From assembly GCF_026015965.1 (NCBI RefSeq), contig NZ_CP110383.1, forward strand, positions 281,808-345,807: a stretch of DNA of 64,000 bases, in the 5' to 3' direction. Positions 5,242 through 60,593 of this stretch are shown in pieces; the first letter of the stretch is position 1, and each line of letters starts with the position of its first letter. The DNA comes from Selenomonas sputigena (lineage in GTDB: Bacteria > Bacillota > Negativicutes > Selenomonadales > Selenomonadaceae). The notes below the pieces were generated by a model. The model was not told where the DNA came from. It searched no databases and worked only from the letters and a program-made list of their open reading frames with translations. Made by a program: the position numbers and the translations under genes.

Positions 5242-6060
5242 ATGAACGTACTGGAAGAAGCGCTTCATTGGAAGCATACGCAAAAGATCATCACTTTTGT
5301 CATCATCCTCAATGCCGCCGTATTGGGCATATTGACGAATCGAACACTGTCCGCCGAAGAAGTCTTGTTTCTCGAAGCAGTCGACAAAGCCTGTCTGGTG
5401 ATTTTCACCGTCGAGTTGATTGCAAAACTGCTCGTTTATCGGCGAAGTTTTTGGTCAGAGGGCTGGAACATCTTTGATTTCGTCATCGTCCTCAGTTCCA
5501 TCGTCTTCATCTCCTCCAGTATTTCGGTCATACGAGCCTTCCGTATCTTCCGACTGCTCAAGGCGCTCGCCGAGTTCCCTGAGCTGCAGATTCTCGTATC
5601 GTCCATGCTCAAGGCGATTCCCAGCATGACGTGGGCGCTTCTGCTGCTCTTCATCGTCTTCTATATCTTTGCCGTTTTCGGCAGTACGATGTACGGCGAT
5701 GCGTTTCCCGAGCTGTTCGGCGACATCGGCGGCTCCATGTTCACGCTGTTCCAGGTCATGACCTTTGAGTCATGGGCGACCGCCGTGGCGCGGCCAATCA
5801 TGGCAACGTATTCTTATGCATGGGTATACTTTTTGGTGTTCATTCTTCTTACCGCCATCACGCTCTTGAACGTCATGGTCGGCATCGTGGTCGAGGCGGT
5901 CGGCACCATCTCCGCAGCGGTCAAGGAAAAGCAGGCGGAAGAAGCGGCGGAGAACGCACCGCCCGAGGTGCGAAGAGCCGATGAAATCGAAGCCGAAATC
6001 CGTCAGCACCTTGCACAAATCGAAGCATTGTTACAGAAAAGAAAGGATGAAGCAATATGA
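5242..6060 (+). CDS. BacNav-type voltage-gated sodium channel
   Basis: 272 residues, the usual length for NaChBac/NavAb-like channels. Six membrane segments are visible. S4 carries charges every third residue (R98, R101, R104, K107). The pore helix and selectivity filter read QVMTFESWA (T174-F175-E176-S177-W178), where most relatives have TLESW. S6 is followed by an acidic, helical C-terminal tail (about 235-272) that forms a coiled-coil bundle in the family. Start: GGGAGG precedes ATG 5242, with only 3 nt spacing. Four such subunits form an inner-membrane Na+ channel. The stop overlaps the start of the tpsA2 adhesin by 4 nt (ATGA), implying cotranscription and possible translational coupling, an unexpected pairing. 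Confidence 0.9.
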   Translation: MNVLEEALHWKHTQKIITFVIILNAAVLGILTNRTLSAEEVLFLEAVDKACLVIFTVELIAKLLVYRRSFWSEGWNIFDFVIVLSSIVFISSSISVIRAFRIFRLLKALAEFPELQILVSSMLKAIPSMTWALLLLFIVFYIFAVFGSTMYGDAFPELFGDIGGSMFTLFQVMTFESWATAVARPIMATYSYAWVYFLVFILLTAITLLNVMVGIVVEAVGTISAAVKEKQAEEAAENAPPEVRRADEIEAEIRQHLAQIEALLQKRKDEAI

Positions 6061-9000
6061 AAACAGCATCGAACAAACAGCTGCGCCGCACCATCCTCTG
6101 TGCGCTCTTTGCAGGCATCGTCGCCGCCCCCTTTGCCGCGCAGACGGCGTATGCGCTGCCCATCGAGGGCACGAACGCAGCGACGAACAAGACCGAGGCA
6201 GACATCTCCACGAGCGGCACGGTCATGGACATCACGGGCAAGACCGCGCACAATATCCTCAAATGGGAGAACTTCTCCATCGACTCGGGCGAGAAGGTGC
6301 GCTTTGATGGCGGACATCAGACGCGCGACTATCTGAACCTCGTCACGGGCGAGGGCGCGTCGAACATCTACGGAACGATCGAGGGCGGCAGGAACGTCTA
6401 CCTCGTCAACCCGCACGGCATCCTCTTTGCCGCAGGGTCACAGGTGAATACGGGCGCACTCTACCTCTCGACGGCGAATCCCACAGACATTGCCACAGCG
6501 ACGAACGCATTCAAGACAAACGGCACAAGCCCCCTCACAGCGAGCGCACAGATGGGCGACGTGCTGAACCTCGGCACGGTAAAGACGAGCAAACTCTACA
6601 TCGAGGGCAAGAACGTCAAAGTCCTCAACACGGATGATGTGAAGAACACGGCGGGCACTGCGGCGCTTACGGGGACGGACGTCACCATCCGCAGCGAAGA
6701 AACGCCGCATATCGGCTACGATGTCGGCAATAAAATCACGAGGAACTTCACCATAAACGGCGGAACTTCCTCGAAGACGGTCTCCGACTATGCGAGTACG
6801 ACTGCCGCGCATCATGCCGCATCTGCAAAATCGCGCGGCTGGGATGTCAAAAAGTTGAACGGCACCGAGGCGCATACGGACTATGATTATATGCGCGTGC
6901 ATGACGTCTACGAGCTGCAGAATATGGACGCGATTCAGGAGAATCACGGGGGTGCAGGTCAGGATAAGACGATCGGCAGATATATGCTCGCGAATGACAT
7001 CGCGGCAAGCGAGACAAAGGACTGGACAGGGGGTTTCCAGTCGATTGGCACCAGTAACAAGGTCTTTTGGGGACGATTTGACGGCGCAGGGCACACGATC
7101 ACGGGGCTTAACGTTCAGCCGGGGAATGCAGGGGCTACGGAGGATGAAGATCGCGGGATGTTCGGATACACCAAGCAGGCGGTCATCGAGAATGTCTCCC
7201 TGAAGGATGCCTCCGTGTCGGGAACGAAGCAAGTCGGCGGCATTGTGGGAACTGCAGACGACCACTCTGTCATACGGAACGTCTCCTTCAGCGGTAAGGT
7301 CCAGGGACCCGGTACTGGAAATACCGCTGGTACCTCGATCGGCGGCATTGTGGGAAAGCTAAATTTCGGAAGCAGCATTGAGAACGCCTACAACGAGGGC
7401 ACGGTCGAAGGGAACTCTCTTGTCGGCGGCATTGTGGGCTTTGCGTATCAACAGAACACCATTCAGAACGTCCGGAATGCGGGCAAGGTCGTAGGAAATA
7501 AGAACCTCGGCGGCATTGCGGGAGAGGCAGGGTATGACACCAACATTTGGAACGCCCTGCAGACGGGAACCGTGGAGCAAAGATCGGGACAGAGTGATCC
7601 AAACGTCGGCGGCGTTGTGGGATTTTTGGATGACAACAGCACGGTCGCCCATGCCGTATGGAAGAAGGGCAGTGTAACGAATGGGAGCGGCACTCTGATC
7701 CGGAACGGCATCGGCGCTACACTGCAAAATAGTACAGCGACCGATGTTGAGGAGCGCGACGAGGCGCAGATGAAGCTGGCAGAGACGTATAAGGACTGGA
7801 AGGACGGGAGCGGCAAGGCTCTCGTTGCCACCGAGGGCGGCAAGAGGGCGCCGTGGCGCATCTACGACGGCAAGACCATGCCGCTCCTCACGGCATTCCT
7901 CCGGACAAAGCATCTTGCAAACCGCGAGAAGGTCTACGACGGCACGGCTCCGACGATTGCGGGCGGCGACCATATTTCCCTCGATGCAGAGAAAAACGTC
8001 GGCACATATCATGCCTACAGCGAGCAGTATGACATCATCGGCGGCGCGTACACCGTCAAGCCGAAGGAGCTGACGCTCGGCTTTACGAGCGGCACGCGCT
8101 TTGACAAGACCTATGACGGGGGGCTAGATACCGTCACGCGGACGCTCACGAAGGGGCAGCACTATAATCTCGGTGGCTTTGTCGGCAGCGATGGCGCGGA
8201 TGTCGAACTGGCGGGTGCTGTCACGGGCAAGTATGCGGACAAGAACGCAGGCAGGGATAAGGAAGTGACGTTCCAAAATCTCGCGCTCACAGGCACAGGC
8301 GCGAAGAACTATACCATCAAAAAGGCGCAGGGCGTGGGGACAATCACGCCGAAGGCTCTGACGCTCGACCTCGTGGGCGGCACGCGCTTTGATAAGACCT
8401 ACGACGGCAATGCAAACGTCACGCAGGCACTCGCGAAGGGGACGAACTACACCCTCACCGGCTTTATCGGCACGGAGGGCGACCACCTCGCACTCGCCGC
8501 CGCCACGGGCACGTATACGGACAAGAATGCCGCCACAGACAAAACCGTCACCTTTGGCGGGCTGACGCTCACGGGTACGGGCGCGGGCAACTACACGCTG
8601 AACAAGACCACGCTCACGGGCATCGGCACGATCGCGCGGCGTGCGCTGACGCTCGGCGCAGTCGCGGGGCAGACAAAGACCTACGACGGTACGACCGACG
8701 CAGACACGTCGAAGTTCGGCGCGGTACTGAACAATGCCATCGCGGGTGACAAGGTGACGGCGACCGCCACGGGTGCGGCGTACAACGACAAGAACGTCGT
8801 CGGGGCAAGCAGGATCGACTACACGGGTGTCGGTCTCGCGGGTTCGGATGCCGGGAACTACACGCTTGCCGCCACCACGGCGCAGGGCGCGGGCACGATC
8901 GCAAAGCGTGCGCTGACCGTTGGCGAAGTAACGGCGCAGAGCAAGACCTACGACGGCACGACCTCCGCAGACACGTCGAAGTTCCGTGCGGCACTCGGTA

Positions 9001-10187
9001 ATCTCGTCGCGGGCGAGGAAGGCAGCGTAGCGGCAACCGCCACGGGCGCGACCTACAACGACAAAAACGTCGCTGCGGCAAACAAGGTGAGCTATACGGG
9101 CGTTGCGCTCCAAGGCACAGGCGCGGGGAACTACAGTCTCGCCGCGATGACGGCACAGGGGGCGGGCAGCATCACGCCGAAGGAGCTGAATCTCGCGCTC
9201 GTGGGCGGCGCACGCTTTGACAAGACGTATGACGGCAATGCAAACGTGACGCAGACGCTCGCGAAGGGTGGGAACTATACCCTCACGGGCTTTGTCGGCA
9301 CGGAGGGCGACCACCTCGCACTCGCCGCCACCACGGGTACGTATACGGCGGGCAAAGACGCGAGGACAGACAAGGAAGTGACGTTTAAGAATCTCACGCT
9401 CACGGGGATGGGCGCGGGCAACTACACGCTCGATAAGACTGCGCTCACAGGCATCGGCACGATTGCGCGGCGTGCGCTGACGCTCGGTGCAGTCGCGGCG
9501 CAGACAAAGACCTACGACGGCACGAGAGCCGCTGACGCATCGAAGTTCCGCGCGGCGCTCACGGGTACCATCGCGGGGGATAATGTCACCGCCGCCGCCG
9601 CAGGTGCAGCCTACAACAACAAGAACGTCGCGGCGGCAAATCGCATTGACTACACGGGTGTCGGTCTCGCGGGTGCGGATGCGGGCAACTATAGCCTCGC
9701 TGCGACGACTGCGCAGGGGGCGGGTACGATCACGCACCGTACGCTGACCCTCACCGCCGCACCGCACAGCATCGTGCAGGGAGAGCCGCTGCCATCCTTC
9801 ACGGGACGTGCGGAAGGCTTCGCCGACGGTGAAGATGCAGCCGTACTTGGTGCGGGCGACTTGATGTTTGAGAGTGCGGTGACGAATACCGAAACGCCCG
9901 GCAGCTACGGCGTCACAGGGCGCATCGGCGGCATCACGGACGGCATCCTCGGCAACTACCGCATCCGACAGGCGGCGGGCAACGCGACTGCCTTCACCAT
10001 CCATGCCGCAGCACTGCCGGGCGGACTTCTCGCCTCGCTCGTGCAGGACGCTGCCCCGCGCTTCGACTTCGGTTTCGGCGACACCGTCCACATCTATGGC
10101 ACTGCGCGTCCCATTCGCGCCGCAACGCTCGGACTCTACCGCTTCGCTGCGGAAGAGGGCCTCGAAATTCAGGGGTTGAGCCTTTGA
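6057..10187 (+). CDS. Filamentous hemagglutinin-family TPS adhesin with GLUG and YDG/MBG repeats (tpsA2)
   Basis: 1376 residues. A signal peptide (1-34, ending AYA) is followed by the TPS/haemagglutination-activity domain (about 35-190), with the secretion motif region NVYLVNPHGILFAAGSQVNTG. GLUG-type GGIVG repeats lie at about 380-530. Six YDG-type repeats of about 80-95 residues (each with KTYDG) span about 680-1235. An MBG-like domain and a conserved C-terminus follow. Ribosome site AAAGGA (6042-6047) lies inside the channel gene. Its partner pore is encoded 50 bp downstream. Inferred role: a large surface or secreted adhesin that crosses the outer membrane through TpsB2. Repeats and GC-rich codons make it prone to recombination with tpsA1. 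Confidence 0.93.
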   Translation: MKTASNKQLRRTILCALFAGIVAAPFAAQTAYALPIEGTNAATNKTEADISTSGTVMDITGKTAHNILKWENFSIDSGEKVRFDGGHQTRDYLNLVTGEGASNIYGTIEGGRNVYLVNPHGILFAAGSQVNTGALYLSTANPTDIATATNAFKTNGTSPLTASAQMGDVLNLGTVKTSKLYIEGKNVKVLNTDDVKNTAGTAALTGTDVTIRSEETPHIGYDVGNKITRNFTINGGTSSKTVSDYASTTAAHHAASAKSRGWDVKKLNGTEAHTDYDYMRVHDVYELQNMDAIQENHGGAGQDKTIGRYMLANDIAASETKDWTGGFQSIGTSNKVFWGRFDGAGHTITGLNVQPGNAGATEDEDRGMFGYTKQAVIENVSLKDASVSGTKQVGGIVGTADDHSVIRNVSFSGKVQGPGTGNTAGTSIGGIVGKLNFGSSIENAYNEGTVEGNSLVGGIVGFAYQQNTIQNVRNAGKVVGNKNLGGIAGEAGYDTNIWNALQTGTVEQRSGQSDPNVGGVVGFLDDNSTVAHAVWKKGSVTNGSGTLIRNGIGATLQNSTATDVEERDEAQMKLAETYKDWKDGSGKALVATEGGKRAPWRIYDGKTMPLLTAFLRTKHLANREKVYDGTAPTIAGGDHISLDAEKNVGTYHAYSEQYDIIGGAYTVKPKELTLGFTSGTRFDKTYDGGLDTVTRTLTKGQHYNLGGFVGSDGADVELAGAVTGKYADKNAGRDKEVTFQNLALTGTGAKNYTIKKAQGVGTITPKALTLDLVGGTRFDKTYDGNANVTQALAKGTNYTLTGFIGTEGDHLALAAATGTYTDKNAATDKTVTFGGLTLTGTGAGNYTLNKTTLTGIGTIARRALTLGAVAGQTKTYDGTTDADTSKFGAVLNNAIAGDKVTATATGAAYNDKNVVGASRIDYTGVGLAGSDAGNYTLAATTAQGAGTIAKRALTVGEVTAQSKTYDGTTSADTSKFRAALGNLVAGEEGSVAATATGATYNDKNVAAANKVSYTGVALQGTGAGNYSLAAMTAQGAGSITPKELNLALVGGARFDKTYDGNANVTQTLAKGGNYTLTGFVGTEGDHLALAATTGTYTAGKDARTDKEVTFKNLTLTGMGAGNYTLDKTALTGIGTIARRALTLGAVAAQTKTYDGTRAADASKFRAALTGTIAGDNVTAAAAGAAYNNKNVAAANRIDYTGVGLAGADAGNYSLAATTAQGAGTITHRTLTLTAAPHSIVQGEPLPSFTGRAEGFADGEDAAVLGAGDLMFESAVTNTETPGSYGVTGRIGGITDGILGNYRIRQAAGNATAFTIHAAALPGGLLASLVQDAAPRFDFGFGDTVHIYGTARPIRAATLGLYRFAAEEGLEIQGLSL

Positions 10188-44276: not shown

Positions 44277-44861
44277 ATGACAAATAAGATTTATGCGCTG
44301 GTCGGGCCGCACGCTTCGGGCAAGACGGTGCTGATCGGCAAACTTATGCAGATGGGGATTCATTACATTCCTTTATATACGACGCGGAAACCAGGAAAAA
44401 TCGATTCCGATACGAGATTTTACCGCTTTGTCGGCAAGGCGGAGTTCTTCAAGCAGGAATTCATTGTGCACGTCACATATAAGGGTGACTATTATGGCGT
44501 CTTAAAAAAAGACGTTCTTTCGGCGTTGCAGGAGCATAAGATCAGCCTTGTGATGTTGGAGGCGAATGGCGTCAAGCAGCTCGCGCGCCTTTTGAAAGAG
44601 AATTTCGAGACGATCTTCCTCATGGTCGACTATGTGACGCTCGTCGAGCGCATGATTCGTCTCGGACATAAAAATAGTGAGATAAAGTATCATTTGGAAT
44701 ATGCAGAAAACAACAGTGAGTTTGACAACTGGAAGGACGCTACGCATGTCGTGAAGATCCGGAATGTGGCGAATCCGGGGACGGCGTTTGATCAGATCCT
44801 GGCAATCATGGGATTGATGCGCCTCCTGCCACCGGAGAAGCTCAAGGAATGCGTGCAATAA
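44277..44861 (+). CDS. Guanylate kinase-like P-loop protein
   Basis: 194 residues. The P-loop GPHASGKT is near the N-terminus, and YTTRKPG...FYRF resembles the GMP-binding segment of guanylate kinase. The lid and C-terminal parts match less well than in a housekeeping Gmk, and no rpoZ or coaBC neighbours are present. It is therefore probably a divergent paralogue rather than the main enzyme. AGGAGAGG precedes ATG 44277. AT-rich coding sets it apart from flanking genes. Confidence 0.75.
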   Translation: MTNKIYALVGPHASGKTVLIGKLMQMGIHYIPLYTTRKPGKIDSDTRFYRFVGKAEFFKQEFIVHVTYKGDYYGVLKKDVLSALQEHKISLVMLEANGVKQLARLLKENFETIFLMVDYVTLVERMIRLGHKNSEIKYHLEYAENNSEFDNWKDATHVVKIRNVANPGTAFDQILAIMGLMRLLPPEKLKECVQ

Positions 44862-44944
44862 AGGGGCAGCCTGCAAGGGCTGCTTCTTTATTTTGCAGAG
44901 AAATTTAGTCGACGGAAAATATTTCAAGATTTTTCAAAATATTA

Positions 44945-44973
44945 TTGACAACTTATAGGAGATGTTTTATAAT
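44945..44973 (+). promoter_or_regulatory. Consensus promoter of the large RNA candidate
   Basis: TTGACA (44945-44950), 17-bp spacer, TATAAT (44968-44973), a perfect sigma-70 consensus, the best in the window. Confidence 0.9.
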
Positions 44974-44979
44974 AAAAGT

Positions 44980-45584
44980 GCAGATGGAAGGAGGCATCCC
45001 TTGCGAAGATGTTTGCAGAAAGAGGAGAAACTTTAGTATGCAGACTAGCAAAAATAGCAGAAAAGCTTAAGGTAAGCCGAAGGTTCAGGCATGAGGCGCA
45101 TCGTGGAGGAGGAAGAGCGTATTCCGAGACCATGATGAACAAGCTCACGGAGAGAATCCAAAGGGCGGCAAGCCGTTGCAGTATGGCGGCAGGAAGCGGA
45201 ACGAATATTCATGAAGGGTTGAGGGGCGCTTGCGGAACTGATGTAAGGCAAGACGCAAGTGCCGAAGAATCCACGGATACGAATCCGTGCGTCAAGGCGG
45301 AAGCTCATGCAGCTGCGAAGAACAATGCATGAGTTTGACGCAGAAGAAGAGCAGTTCCGATCAATTCCGAGTCCGAGTAGAAGAATCGTGCGCAGGAACA
45401 GCAGGGCGCATAGTGCCGATACCGCTTGACTGCCGAAAAAGAGCGCCAGAGAGTGCATCTCCATGCGGCAGGGCAAAGGCTTCATGGCTTCGGTGAAACT
45501 CGAGAGATCTGCGGGGGTCGACTTTCAAACAAAAAGGGAACTGGTGCATAAGTTAAGTTCAGCTTATGCACCAGTTCCCTTTTT
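44980..45584 (+). ncRNA. Candidate large structured non-coding RNA, about 605 nt
   Basis: A perfect promoter and a 20-bp terminator bound a stretch with no convincing gene; the longest frames (for example 45009-45332) lack family features and a ribosome site. Helices seen: 5'-3' closing pairs ATCCC (44996-45000) with GGGGT (45514-45518) and GCAGA (45015-45019) with TCTGC (45508-45512); CATCGTGG (45099-45106) with CCATGATG (45130-45137); GGAACTG (45234-45240) with CAGTTCC (45352-45358), enclosing CACGGAT-ACGA-ATCCGTG (45272-45289) and an 11-bp stem 45301-45311/45326-45336; GTGCGC/GCGCAT (45388-45411); CTGCCG/CGGCAG (45430-45471). Size resembles ROOL, OLE or GOLLD RNAs, but assignment to any of these needs a covariance search. 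Confidence 0.65.
45533..45584. terminator. Strong terminator of the large RNA, probably bidirectional
   Basis: A 20-bp perfect stem (45533-45552 with 45563-45582) ends in TTTTT. The opposite strand also has a T-rich tail, so it may stop minus-strand yitT transcription as well. Confidence 0.92.
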
Positions 45585-45666
45585 GTCGTCAATCGTGCTG
45601 CGACCGTTGCTCTTGAGCCTTCATTACGGGGCTACAGCATAGATGTCGAAATTGATCTGTGCAGGT

Positions 45667-46536
45667 TTAATGGCCGCTTTTCTTGAATCTCCCGCCTACG
45701 ATGTCGTGGACGGCGTTGATCGTTACGAAGGCGCTTTCATCGATGTCGAGGACGGTTTCCTTGAGTTTGTTGACTTCGAGGCGCGTGACGACGGAGTAGA
45801 GAACCTTTTTCTCTTCGCCCGTGTAGCCGCCTGCGCCGTAGAGGAGGGTGACGCCGCGTCCCAATCGCTCGGCGAGAGCGACATTGATCTTGTCCGGTTC
45901 GTTCGTGACGATCATGACGGCGTAGGATTCGTCGAGTCCCTGGACGACGACATCGATCATCTTGGCGATGACGAAGTAGGCGACGAGCGAGTACATCGCC
46001 TTGTCCCAGCCGAAGAGCAGGCCGGCGCTCGACAGGATGAAGAGGTTGATGAACATGACGACCTCACCGACGGAGAATACGGATTTCTTGTCGAGGATGA
46101 TGGCGACGATCTCCGTGCCGTCGAGCGAGCCGCCCGAACGAATGATGAGTCCGACGCCGAGGCCGACGATGATGCCGCCGAAGATGGCGGCGAGGAAGAG
46201 ATCCTGCGTGACGGTCGGGAACGGCGCGAAGTAGGCCGACCAAAAGGAGAGTAGGAAGATGGCGGTCATGGTGGCGACAGCGAAGGCTTTGCCGATCTGC
46301 TTGTAGCCGATGTAGAGGAACGGGAGGTTGAAGAGGATGAGAAAGACGCCCAGAGGCTGCTCTGTGATGGCATGCGCCATGATGGAGAGGCCGACGACGC
46401 CGCCGTCGATGATGTTGTTCGGGATGAGGAAGATTTCGAGTCCGACGGCCGTGATGACGGCGCCGATGAAGATCGTCACATATTTCTGCATGAGGGCGAG
46501 CAGGTGCTTCTTGCGGCTTTTCTTTTCTTTTTCCAT
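45667..46536 (-). CDS. YitT-family membrane protein
   Basis: 289 residues with five or six membrane segments (GLEIFLIPNNIIDGGVVGLSIM...SGGSLDGTEIVAIIL) and a C-terminal soluble DUF2179-type domain (about 215-285, LLYGAGGYTGEEKKVLYSVVTRLEV). The family is common in Firmicutes. Transport function is presumed, and the C-terminal domain may bind a nucleotide, but neither is proven. It has no operon partner. Confidence 0.9.
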   Translation of the reverse strand: MEKEKKSRKKHLLALMQKYVTIFIGAVITAVGLEIFLIPNNIIDGGVVGLSIMAHAITEQPLGVFLILFNLPFLYIGYKQIGKAFAVATMTAIFLLSFWSAYFAPFPTVTQDLFLAAIFGGIIVGLGVGLIIRSGGSLDGTEIVAIILDKKSVFSVGEVVMFINLFILSSAGLLFGWDKAMYSLVAYFVIAKMIDVVVQGLDESYAVMIVTNEPDKINVALAERLGRGVTLLYGAGGYTGEEKKVLYSVVTRLEVNKLKETVLDIDESAFVTINAVHDIVGGRFKKSGH

Positions 46537-46699: not shown

Positions 46700-46777
46700 G
46701 ACTCAGTAGCTCAGTTGGATCAGAGTATTTGACTACGAATCAAAGGGTCGGGGGTTCGAGTCCCTCCTGGGTCACCA
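46700..46777 (+). tRNA. tRNA-Arg (anticodon ACG)
   Basis: Acceptor stem GACTCAG/CTGGGTC, D-arm AGCTCAGTTGGATCAGAGT, anticodon stem TTTGA/TCAAA with loop CTACGAA, and T-arm GGGGGTTCGAGTCCCTC fold normally. The discriminator A and CCA are encoded. A promoter precedes it and a terminator follows. Confidence 0.96.
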
Positions 46778-46915: not shown

Positions 46916-46969
46916 AATGAAGGGGATTCATGTATAATAGGCAATGAAGGGGATTCATGTATAATAGGC
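46916..46969 (+). promoter_or_regulatory. Exact 27-bp tandem duplication carrying -10 box and operator-like palindrome, upstream of tetR
   Basis: Units 46916-46942 and 46943-46969 are identical. Each holds the inverted repeat TGAA-GGGGA-TTCA followed by TATAAT. Doubling gives two -10 boxes and two possible operator sites 27 bp apart, just before the TetR gene. No good -35 box is seen for either. Confidence 0.65.
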
Positions 46970-47017
46970 AAGGAGAGTTGGAGTGTGCAGGAGACTCCTT
47001 GAGCGAGGAGGATTTGT

Positions 47018-56476: not shown

Positions 56477-56530
56477 GCTTGACTCGATCGGTTGACAGCG
56501 CAAGCCTGTGCAAGAGAAAGAAGCGTAAAT

Positions 56531-56638
56531 TACACGCACAAACGTCCACTTTGTGGATATTGTGCGACGCCCTTACCAAAAACCGACCAATCAGTCAGCG
56601 CCCTTTGGGCTTGACTTCTTGGACTTTCATAGTAAAAC
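56531..56638 (+). repeat. Dispersed hairpin family, single-hairpin unit, copy 3 (degenerate)
   Basis: A 5' hairpin GCACAA..GTCCAC-TTT-GTGGAT..TTGTGC (56536-56565) is followed by the CCAATC...GCCCTTTGGGC...CTTGG core (56588-56629). The outer arms no longer pair well. It lies just upstream of the hrcA promoter. Confidence 0.65.
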
Positions 56639-56663
56639 TTTTTTGCGAAAGACAAAAAAGATG

Positions 56664-56692
56664 TTGACTTTTTGACTTTTATCGTGTATATT
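56664..56692 (+). promoter_or_regulatory. Promoter of the hrcA-grpE-dnaK-dnaJ operon
   Basis: TTGACT (56664-56669), 17-bp spacer, TATATT (56687-56692), directly followed by CIRCE. Confidence 0.85.
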
Positions 56693-56703
56693 CTAGTCAT
56701 GGG

Positions 56704-56730
56704 TTAGCACTCAAGGAGATTGAGTGCTAA
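56704..56730 (+). promoter_or_regulatory. CIRCE operator (HrcA binding site)
   Basis: A perfect TTAGCACTC-N9-GAGTGCTAA, 11 bp after the -10 box. HrcA bound here represses the chaperone operon, and heat relieves it. HrcA is encoded by the first gene downstream. Confidence 0.97.
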
Positions 56731-56739
56731 CAGCATGAA

Positions 56740-56953
56740 CTACACGCACAAACGTCCACTTTGTGGACATTGTGCGCCGCCCTTAATGAAAGTTACCCAA
56801 TCGGCCTGCGCCCTTCGGGCTTGGCTTCTTGGACTTTCATAGTAAACTACACGCACAAACGTCCACTTTGTGGACAAAAGTGCGCCGCCCTTAATGAAAG
56901 TTAGCCAATCGGCCTGCGCCTTTCGGGCTTGGTTTCTTGGACTTTCATAGTAG
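56740..56953 (+). repeat. Two tandem 107-bp hairpin-family units in the hrcA leader (copies 4 and 5)
   Basis: Units start at 56740 and 56847 with CTACACGCACAAACGTCCAC. Each has the GTCCAC-TTT-GTGGAC hairpin, then a long stem with arms TGAAAGT/ACTTTCA (56787-56839; 56895-56947) enclosing CCAATCGGCCTGCGCC-TTCG-like core and CTTGG. They lie within the transcribed leader, between CIRCE and the hrcA ribosome site. Confidence 0.8.
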
Positions 56954-58730: not shown

Positions 58731-60593
58731 ATGGCAAAAGCAATTGGCATCGATTTAGGTACCACGAACTCCGTCGTCTCCGTCATGGAGGGCGGCAAGC
58801 CCGTCGTCATCACGAACCCGGAGGGCAGCCGCCTGACGCCGTCCGTCGTCGGCTTCACGAAGACGGGCGAGCGTCTCATCGGCCAGCTCGCCAAGCGTCA
58901 GGCGGTATCGAACCCTGACCGCACGATCGCGTCGATCAAGCGTCACATGGGTGAGAAGGATTACAAGGTTTCCATCGACGGCAAGGACTACACGCCGCCT
59001 GAGATTTCGGCGATGATCCTGCAGAAGCTCAAAGCGGACGCGGAAGCCTACCTCGGCGAGACGGTGACGCAGGCGGTCATCACGGTGCCGGCGTACTTCA
59101 ACGACAGCCAGCGCCAGGCGACGAAGGATGCGGGCAAGATCGCGGGTCTCGACGTCCTGCGCATCGTCAACGAGCCGACGGCGGCATCGCTGGCATACGG
59201 CGTCGACAAGGGCGGCGAGCACACGGTTCTCGTCTTTGACTTGGGCGGCGGCACGTTCGACGTTTCGATCCTCGAACTCAGCGAGGGCATGGTTGAAGTC
59301 AAGGCGACGAGCGGCGACACGCACTTGGGCGGCGACGACTTTGACCACGCCGTCATGAACTGGATGGTCGAGGAGTTCAAGAAGGAGAACGGCATCGACC
59401 TCTCCGCCGACAAGATGAGTGCACAGCGTCTGTTGGAAGCGGCGGAAAAGGCGAAGATCGAGCTTTCGAGCATGATGGAGACGCCGATCAATCTGCCGTT
59501 CATCACGGCGGACGCCACGGGTCCGAAGCATCTTGACTTGAAGCTCACGCGTGCCAAGTTTGATGAGCTTACGCACGATCTTGTCGAGCGCACGATGGGT
59601 CCGACGCGTCAGGCGATGTCGGATGCAGGTCTTTCGCCTTCGGACATCGACAAGGTGCTTCTCGTCGGCGGTTCGTCGCGCATCCCTGCCGTGCAGGAGG
59701 CCATCAAGGGCTACTTTGGCAAGGAGCCGGATCGCAGCGTGAACCCGGACGAGTGTGTTTCCATCGGTGCGGCAATTCAGGCCGGCATCATCGTCGGCGA
59801 AGTCAAGGACATGCTGCTCCTCGACGTCACGCCGCTTTCTCTGGGTATTGAGACCTTGGGCGGCGTTTCGACGAAGCTCATCGAGCGCAATACGACGATT
59901 CCTGTCAGGAAGAGCCAGATCTTCTCGACGGCAGCGGACAACCAGCCGTCGGTTGACATCCACGTCCTGCAGGGCGAGCGCGAGATGGCTGCGGGCAACA
60001 AGACGCTCGGACGCTTCGAGCTTTCCGATATCCCGCCGGCGCCGCGCGGCGTTCCTCGCATCGAGGTCGCCTTCGACATCGACGCAAACGGCATCGTGCA
60101 CGTCTCCGCGAAGGATCTCGGCACGGGCAAGGAGCAGAAGATCACGATCCAGTCCGACAGCGGCATGAGCAAGGACGACATTGACCGCATGGTCAAGGAA
60201 GCTCAGGCACATGAGGCCGAGGACAAGAAGCAGAAGGAGACCGTGGAGGTCAGAAACCGTGCCGATTCGGCTGTCTATCAGGCGGAGAAGGCGATCAAGG
60301 ATCTCGGCGACAAGGTCGACAAGGCGAAGGCGGACGAAGTGCAGGCGGCGGCCGACAAGGTCAAAGAAGCGCTGAAGGGCACGGACACGGACGCCATCAA
60401 GAAGGCGACGGAAGAGCTGGAAAAGCCGCTCTATGAGATGAGCGCGGCAGCGTACCAGCAGGCGGGCGGCCCTGAGGCTGCAGCAGGCGCGGGCGCAGCT
60501 CCCGGTGCAGGTGCAACGGACGCGGGTGCGAAGAGCGAGGACGACAACGTCGTCGATGCCGAGTACACGGAAGTCAAGGACGACAAGAAATAA
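58731..60593 (+). CDS. dnaK: Molecular chaperone DnaK (Hsp70)
   Basis: 620 residues. The ATPase domain has [24 protein letters not shown] and [11 protein letters not shown]; substrate domain and lid follow, and the end is [10 protein letters not shown] with a Gly/Ala-rich linker before it. TAGGAGG precedes ATG 58731. A terminator hairpin lies between it and dnaJ. Confidence 0.99.

Follow-up and report, generated by a model that had tools for sequence, protein, structure and literature searches.

A predicted large structured noncoding RNA, probably a new one, in two related Selenomonas-type species

Bacterial RNA families longer than 300 nt are few, and those known have brought unexpected biology to light, for example RNA cages and a membrane-bound ribonucleoprotein. 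One of the large RNAs, OLE, is about 610 nt long. ROOL RNAs are found in phage and prophage genomes, frequently close to tRNA islands, and an example of 659 nt has been described (PMC12286853). GOLLD assembles into a cage of 14 chains, and raiA is monomeric (PMC12286853). OLE was reported to be absent from the whole class Negativicutes (PMC11332333).

The stretch of Selenomonas sputigena DNA analysed here, which we call the window, is 64,000 nt long. It contains a putative transcription unit of about 600 nt, consisting of a body of about 560 nt and a terminator, which is also present in a congener (genome G001). The unit and its neighbours comprise the following features, in window coordinates:

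44277-44861, + strand: guanylate-kinase-like (guk-like) neighbouring gene, outside the RNA gene and given as context; same position in G001
44920-44944, + strand: A+T-rich sequence directly 5' of the -35 box, a possible UP element; near-identical in G001
44945-44973, + strand: promoter TTGACA-17-TATAAT; both hexamers the same in G001, with one change in the spacer
44980-45584, + strand: predicted transcript, a large structured noncoding RNA, based on constraint, fold z-score and pair-preserving changes
45534-45581, + strand: intrinsic terminator hairpin of 20 counted pairs, 9 of them G-C; its arms are rewritten yet still pair in G001
45667-46536, - strand: gene of a YitT-type membrane protein, convergent and downstream of the RNA, given as context

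An earlier note on this DNA had described the promoter as perfect and unique in the window, and 44945-44973 is the single exact match to TTGACA-17-TATAAT in the 64 kb. Two further sites have one mismatch, and shuffled sequences give an expectation of 0.09 sites with at most one mismatch. The presumed RNA start was placed about 7 nt past the -10 box. The sequence farther upstream of the near-identical segment 44920-44944 is unrelated in G001, and this segment possibly acts as an UP element. The terminator is a strong one, in which T residues follow a long hairpin containing G+C; its stem is longer when folded alone, and its 20 pairs agree with the size claimed earlier. The A-run on the 5' side of this hairpin may double as a stop signal for the convergent yitT gene, so that the terminator would be used in both directions. 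A tRNA-Arg at 46700 lies beyond yitT, 1.1 kb from the RNA unit, as previously noted. In line with the earlier note, no phage gene or OapA neighbour was seen: the adjacent open reading frames are the guk-like and YitT-type ones, as judged by reading their sequences. Beyond yitT, a sequence of about 27 bp ending TGTATAATAGGCAA is directly duplicated upstream of a TetR-type gene (46919-46972). At 59424-59518, ARAGORN predicts a tRNA-Ser (CGA), on which the Rfam tRNA model is silent at its gathering score.

The RNA resembles ROOL in its size, its lack of a known protein partner and its many helices. Unlike ROOL, it is confined to one genus and is surrounded by a guk-like gene, yitT and one tRNA. 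No phage gene was seen among the neighbouring open reading frames, the single tRNA within 1.2 kb does not constitute an island, and searches of phage records and viral contigs gave no match. With OLE it shares its size and an adjoining membrane-protein gene; however, that neighbour is of the YitT type and was not identified as OapA, no oapA was found at the adjacent open reading frames, and, according to the literature, Negativicutes are not an OLE-carrying lineage. Like GOLLD and raiA, it is a large structured bacterial RNA without an assigned mechanism. A scan of both copies against the whole Rfam library, with permissive filters and E values up to 10, returned no ROOL, GOLLD, OLE or raiA, the models of which we take to be part of Rfam 15. 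The only hits were at chance level; most were to eukaryotic families of hairpins or snoRNAs, and they fell mainly on the terminator. Therefore, membership of any of the four families, which the earlier note had considered, is unsupported. It is very unlikely that the RNA is a divergent member of one of them or a missing housekeeping RNA, despite the similar size, paired ends, many helices and nearby tRNA. RNase P RNA (292 bits) and 6S RNA (71.7 bits) are encoded elsewhere in the genome. What remains from the earlier note is its other proposal, a new family. The stand-alone noncoding RNA gene is well supported by the comparison of the two species, but the family has two known members and the RNA is predicted.

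The comparison with the congener involves two sequences, the window copy and the syntenic copy in G001. The two RNA bodies differ at 31 of 554 aligned positions (5.6%), whereas 136 of 900 fourfold-degenerate sites differ in six neighbouring genes (15.1%; Fisher P ~1e-8). Ordinary spacers nearby differ by 9-18% and contain many indels. The RNA body has one indel, of 2 nt (G001 is longer), in the terminal loop of the 7-bp hairpin at 45272-45289, and the segment 45208-45278 is without a base change. The common island extends from about 44920 to 45533, from promoter to terminator, and both flanking spacers are unrelated in G001. The spacer between the RNA and yitT, including the terminator (45534-45666), is unrelated or has been rewritten there, although the flanking genes are 93% identical. 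Gene order is the same in the two genomes except for about 3.8 kb, including ABC-transporter-type genes, located in G001 between the guk-like gene and the RNA (L087, reverse complement of 5932-9228); the two genes are adjacent in the window. At 56522-56952, the window contains three copies of a 110-140-nt sequence, two of them in tandem about 104 nt apart. They lie on the opposite strand and share 81-89% identity with the segment immediately 3' of the guk-like gene in G001, a repeat family located at the breakpoint.

The low divergence is not explained by a protein. Open reading frames between promoter and terminator are short in all six frames and have no significant Pfam match, and none of the frames of the two strands has a synonymous excess, whether upstream or downstream of the indel. 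A 107-codon ATG-started frame at 45009 has lost its start codon in G001. The claim that the unit encodes no plausible protein was upheld by the reading-frame, Pfam and frame-by-frame substitution analyses. The combination of low divergence with the lack of synonymous excess indicates selection on noncoding sequence. A short frame requires separate consideration: AAGGAGG at 44988-44994 is followed after six bases by a TTG at 45001, 11 codons and a TAG at 45036. The frame is common to both species (MRRCLQKEEKL in the window copy and MRRSLQKEEKL in G001) and might encode a leader peptide or have arisen by chance. The transcript could be an mRNA or dual-function RNA for this peptide, as the textbook spacing of ribosome-binding site and TTG and the intact frame suggest. 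We consider this improbable, since the frame covers just 36 of the 600 nt, the outer stack of the RNA is predicted to bury the ribosome-binding site, one amino-acid change and one silent change give no signal, and the longer frames are all broken or lack constraint.

The predicted minimum free energy, with terminator, is -234.1 kcal/mol, compared with -181.0 kcal/mol in shuffles. Without the terminator, the folds of the two copies are 4.5 and 4.7 SD below dinucleotide shuffles, so that predicted stability far exceeds that of shuffles in both species. The predicted fold comprises the following elements:

44985-45097, + strand: 5' side of a nested end-to-end stack; pair probabilities of ~0.8-1.0 in both species, nearly all changes pair-compatible
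44985-44990, 44993-45000, 45057-45061, 45066-45071, 45076-45080 and 45088-45097, + strand: segments of the 5' side of the stack
45011-45017/45039-45045, + strand: hairpin within the 5' side of the stack
45099-45137, + strand: hairpin 45099-45106/45130-45137 with inner helix 45111-45114/45122-45125; P >=0.98 in both species
45216-45272, + strand: hairpin domain of 45216-45220/45268-45272 and the 10-bp helix 45225-45234/45254-45263; P 0.98-1.00 in both species
45272-45289, + strand: 7-bp hairpin 45272-45278/45283-45289, from alignment and pair probability; its loop holds the one indel of the RNA body
45289-45341, + strand: hairpin 45289-45294/45336-45341 with inner helix 45301-45311/45326-45336, an inverted repeat; P 0.91-0.99 in both species
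45479-45527, + strand: 3' side of the nested stack; pair probabilities of ~0.8-1.0 in both species
45479-45488, 45490-45494, 45499-45504, 45508-45512, 45513-45519 and 45522-45527, + strand: segments of the 3' side of the stack

The ends of the RNA were previously thought to pair with each other. Nested pairing of the ends is supported (44985-44990/45522-45527, 44993-45000/45513-45519 and 45057-45061/45508-45512, all with P of at least 0.95), but the exact coordinates given earlier (44996-45019 with 45508-45518) were not confirmed. Several pair-compatible changes occur in the helix 45066-45071/45499-45504. The 11-bp and 7-bp hairpins reported earlier are both present, with 11-nt arms at 45301-45311/45326-45336 and with the 7-bp stem listed above. 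The long-range helix 45234-45240/45352-45358, which was said to enclose them, has real complementarity but is predicted in neither species. It could form only as a pseudoknot, because in both species 45225-45234 pairs with 45254-45263 (P=1.00) and the distal strand has other partners. The 19-nt loop of this 10-bp helix is wholly invariant. Seven CATG sequences occur in 44980-45533, mostly inside predicted stems, compared with about two expected from base composition.

The pattern of substitutions follows the predicted pairs. As a control, the observed base changes were each reassigned at random to positions carrying the same base. On the fold of the window copy, 21 changes fall at paired sites and 15 of them preserve pairing, compared with 8.3 expected (P 0.002-0.004). 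On the fold of the G001 copy, 17 of 20 keep the pair, compared with 7.9 expected (reached in 0 of 3000 randomizations), and there are 3 breaks, compared with 9.8 expected (P 0.001). All 17 changes in pairs are compatible with the joint fold, which was itself optimised on both sequences. Both arms of the terminator have changed together in G001, where they continue to pair as a long stem; with two sequences only, there is hardly any strict covariation outside the terminator. All six changes that break pairs on the fold of the window copy lie within 45184-45463, in central helices that do not have high probability in G001, and the centre of the fold is therefore tentative. The central multibranch region (45140-45200 with 45350-45470) folds differently between the two species. 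On the fold of the window copy, 10 changes affect 230 unpaired sites and 21 affect 324 paired sites. That unpaired sites are about as conserved as paired ones suggests that the loops matter for tertiary contacts or ligands. Taken together, the gene is very probably under selection on RNA structure.

The RNA was found in no genome beyond the genus. The earlier note had proposed collecting homologues from other Selenomonadaceae. The syntenic copy in the congener was recovered, but a DNA search of 189 family genomes yielded nothing beyond the genus except one weak match in genome G154. A covariance model of 45188-45362 identified the two congeners only, both among 380 class genomes and 398 phylum genomes and, with laxer filters, among 40 close relatives; one match with E=0.07 lies inside a coding gene and was discounted. 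Phage and plasmid records gave no match. Exact DNA patterns from the conserved stretches detected no homologue in the GTDB genome set and viral contigs, collections that may leave out the window's own and very near genomes; 35 matches to one 17-mer and one to an 18-mer were due to chance and had no extension. The yitT and guk-like loci of other genera contain no related RNA, and there an HtpX-like gene often comes after the guk-like one. A more divergent congener, S. lamontii ATCC 33150 (assembly ASM516034v1), with an ANI of about 80% to S. sputigena, has been described (PMC13339959), and it was not found among the genome sets searched. Since the broad searches gave no homologue outside the genus, the support for the fold comes from within it.

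The weak match (E=9e-4, 40 nt, 83%) lies inside an intact GIY-YIG/NUMOD3 endonuclease-like gene of G154 (L037:1055-1864), and its translation aligns EGGIPCEDV-C-RKR with EGGIPCEEV-RKR. Several reading frames of the RNA contain NUMOD3-like strings, which makes it tempting to regard the unit as a decayed protein gene, for example of a homing endonuclease (GIY-YIG with NUMOD3 repeats), alignable by descent. However, in shuffled controls the purine-rich composition proved sufficient to account for such strings. Frameshift-tolerant alignment, run against 12 NUMOD3 open-reading-frame extracts from the family with one gene represented twice, scored above dinucleotide shuffles solely for the protein that the weak match had singled out, and that excess vanished once the first 60 nt were removed. 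A decayed-gene alignment, which the earlier note had named as counter-evidence, was thus not obtained. Divergence at a third of the fourfold rate and a kept promoter are also unlike a relic, and we regard this origin as extremely improbable. NUMOD3 is absent from the S. sputigena genome even at E=10. Within the family, one uncultured genus (g13) commonly carries NUMOD3 genes, and the other genera yielded none. A back-translated GGIPCE(E/D)V pattern matched 19 unrelated genes in viral contigs.

With its own promoter and terminator, no conserved frame and conserved structure, the locus has the general features of a stand-alone structured noncoding RNA. The same promoter and terminator, together with the intergenic position and the purine-rich 5' end with its AAGGAGG, would also fit a trans-acting small RNA that functions for the most part by pairing with mRNAs, or by titrating a protein (CsrA, for example), and not through a large tertiary fold. 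This is unlikely given the unusual length and the conservation from end to end, which includes loops as well as stems. The complementary sequences detected elsewhere in the genome are short, chance-level matches inside coding genes. GGA motifs, expected in a CsrB-type sponge, are not enriched (13, compared with about 18 expected from base counts). We consider it rather probable that the RNA acts as a structural RNA or ribonucleoprotein and not as a base-pairing regulator.

Own start and stop signals, no protein, an elaborate fold kept in two species and absence from all other genomes searched indicate that this is probably a new large noncoding RNA. The DNA signals, the constraint, the lack of coding constraint, the pair-preserving evolution and the restriction to the genus are directly supported. 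With moderate confidence, the locus can be viewed as a stand-alone, genus-restricted gene of a large structured noncoding RNA, presumably transcribed. Its strong sigma-70 promoter would drive, and its terminator would end, transcription of the body plus terminator. The ends of the transcript would pair as a nested stack around several hairpin domains, resulting in a closed shape, provided that the outer stack forms in cells. Such an RNA would most likely be trans-acting, either as a folded molecule or by scaffolding an RNA-protein particle, and would not serve as an mRNA.

We tentatively speculate that the RNA represents a new ornate family, unrelated in sequence to ROOL, GOLLD and OLE, which in one oral Selenomonas-type lineage forms an RNA-only or RNA-protein complex with a role of its own. 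The first shuttle vector in S. sputigena has been reported (PMC12089946). The lineage belongs to a group of culturable oral bacteria, and the RNA could therefore be deleted and pulled down directly. The finding suggests that large structured RNAs can be lineage-specific, and such RNAs would be missed by searches that rely on broad conservation.
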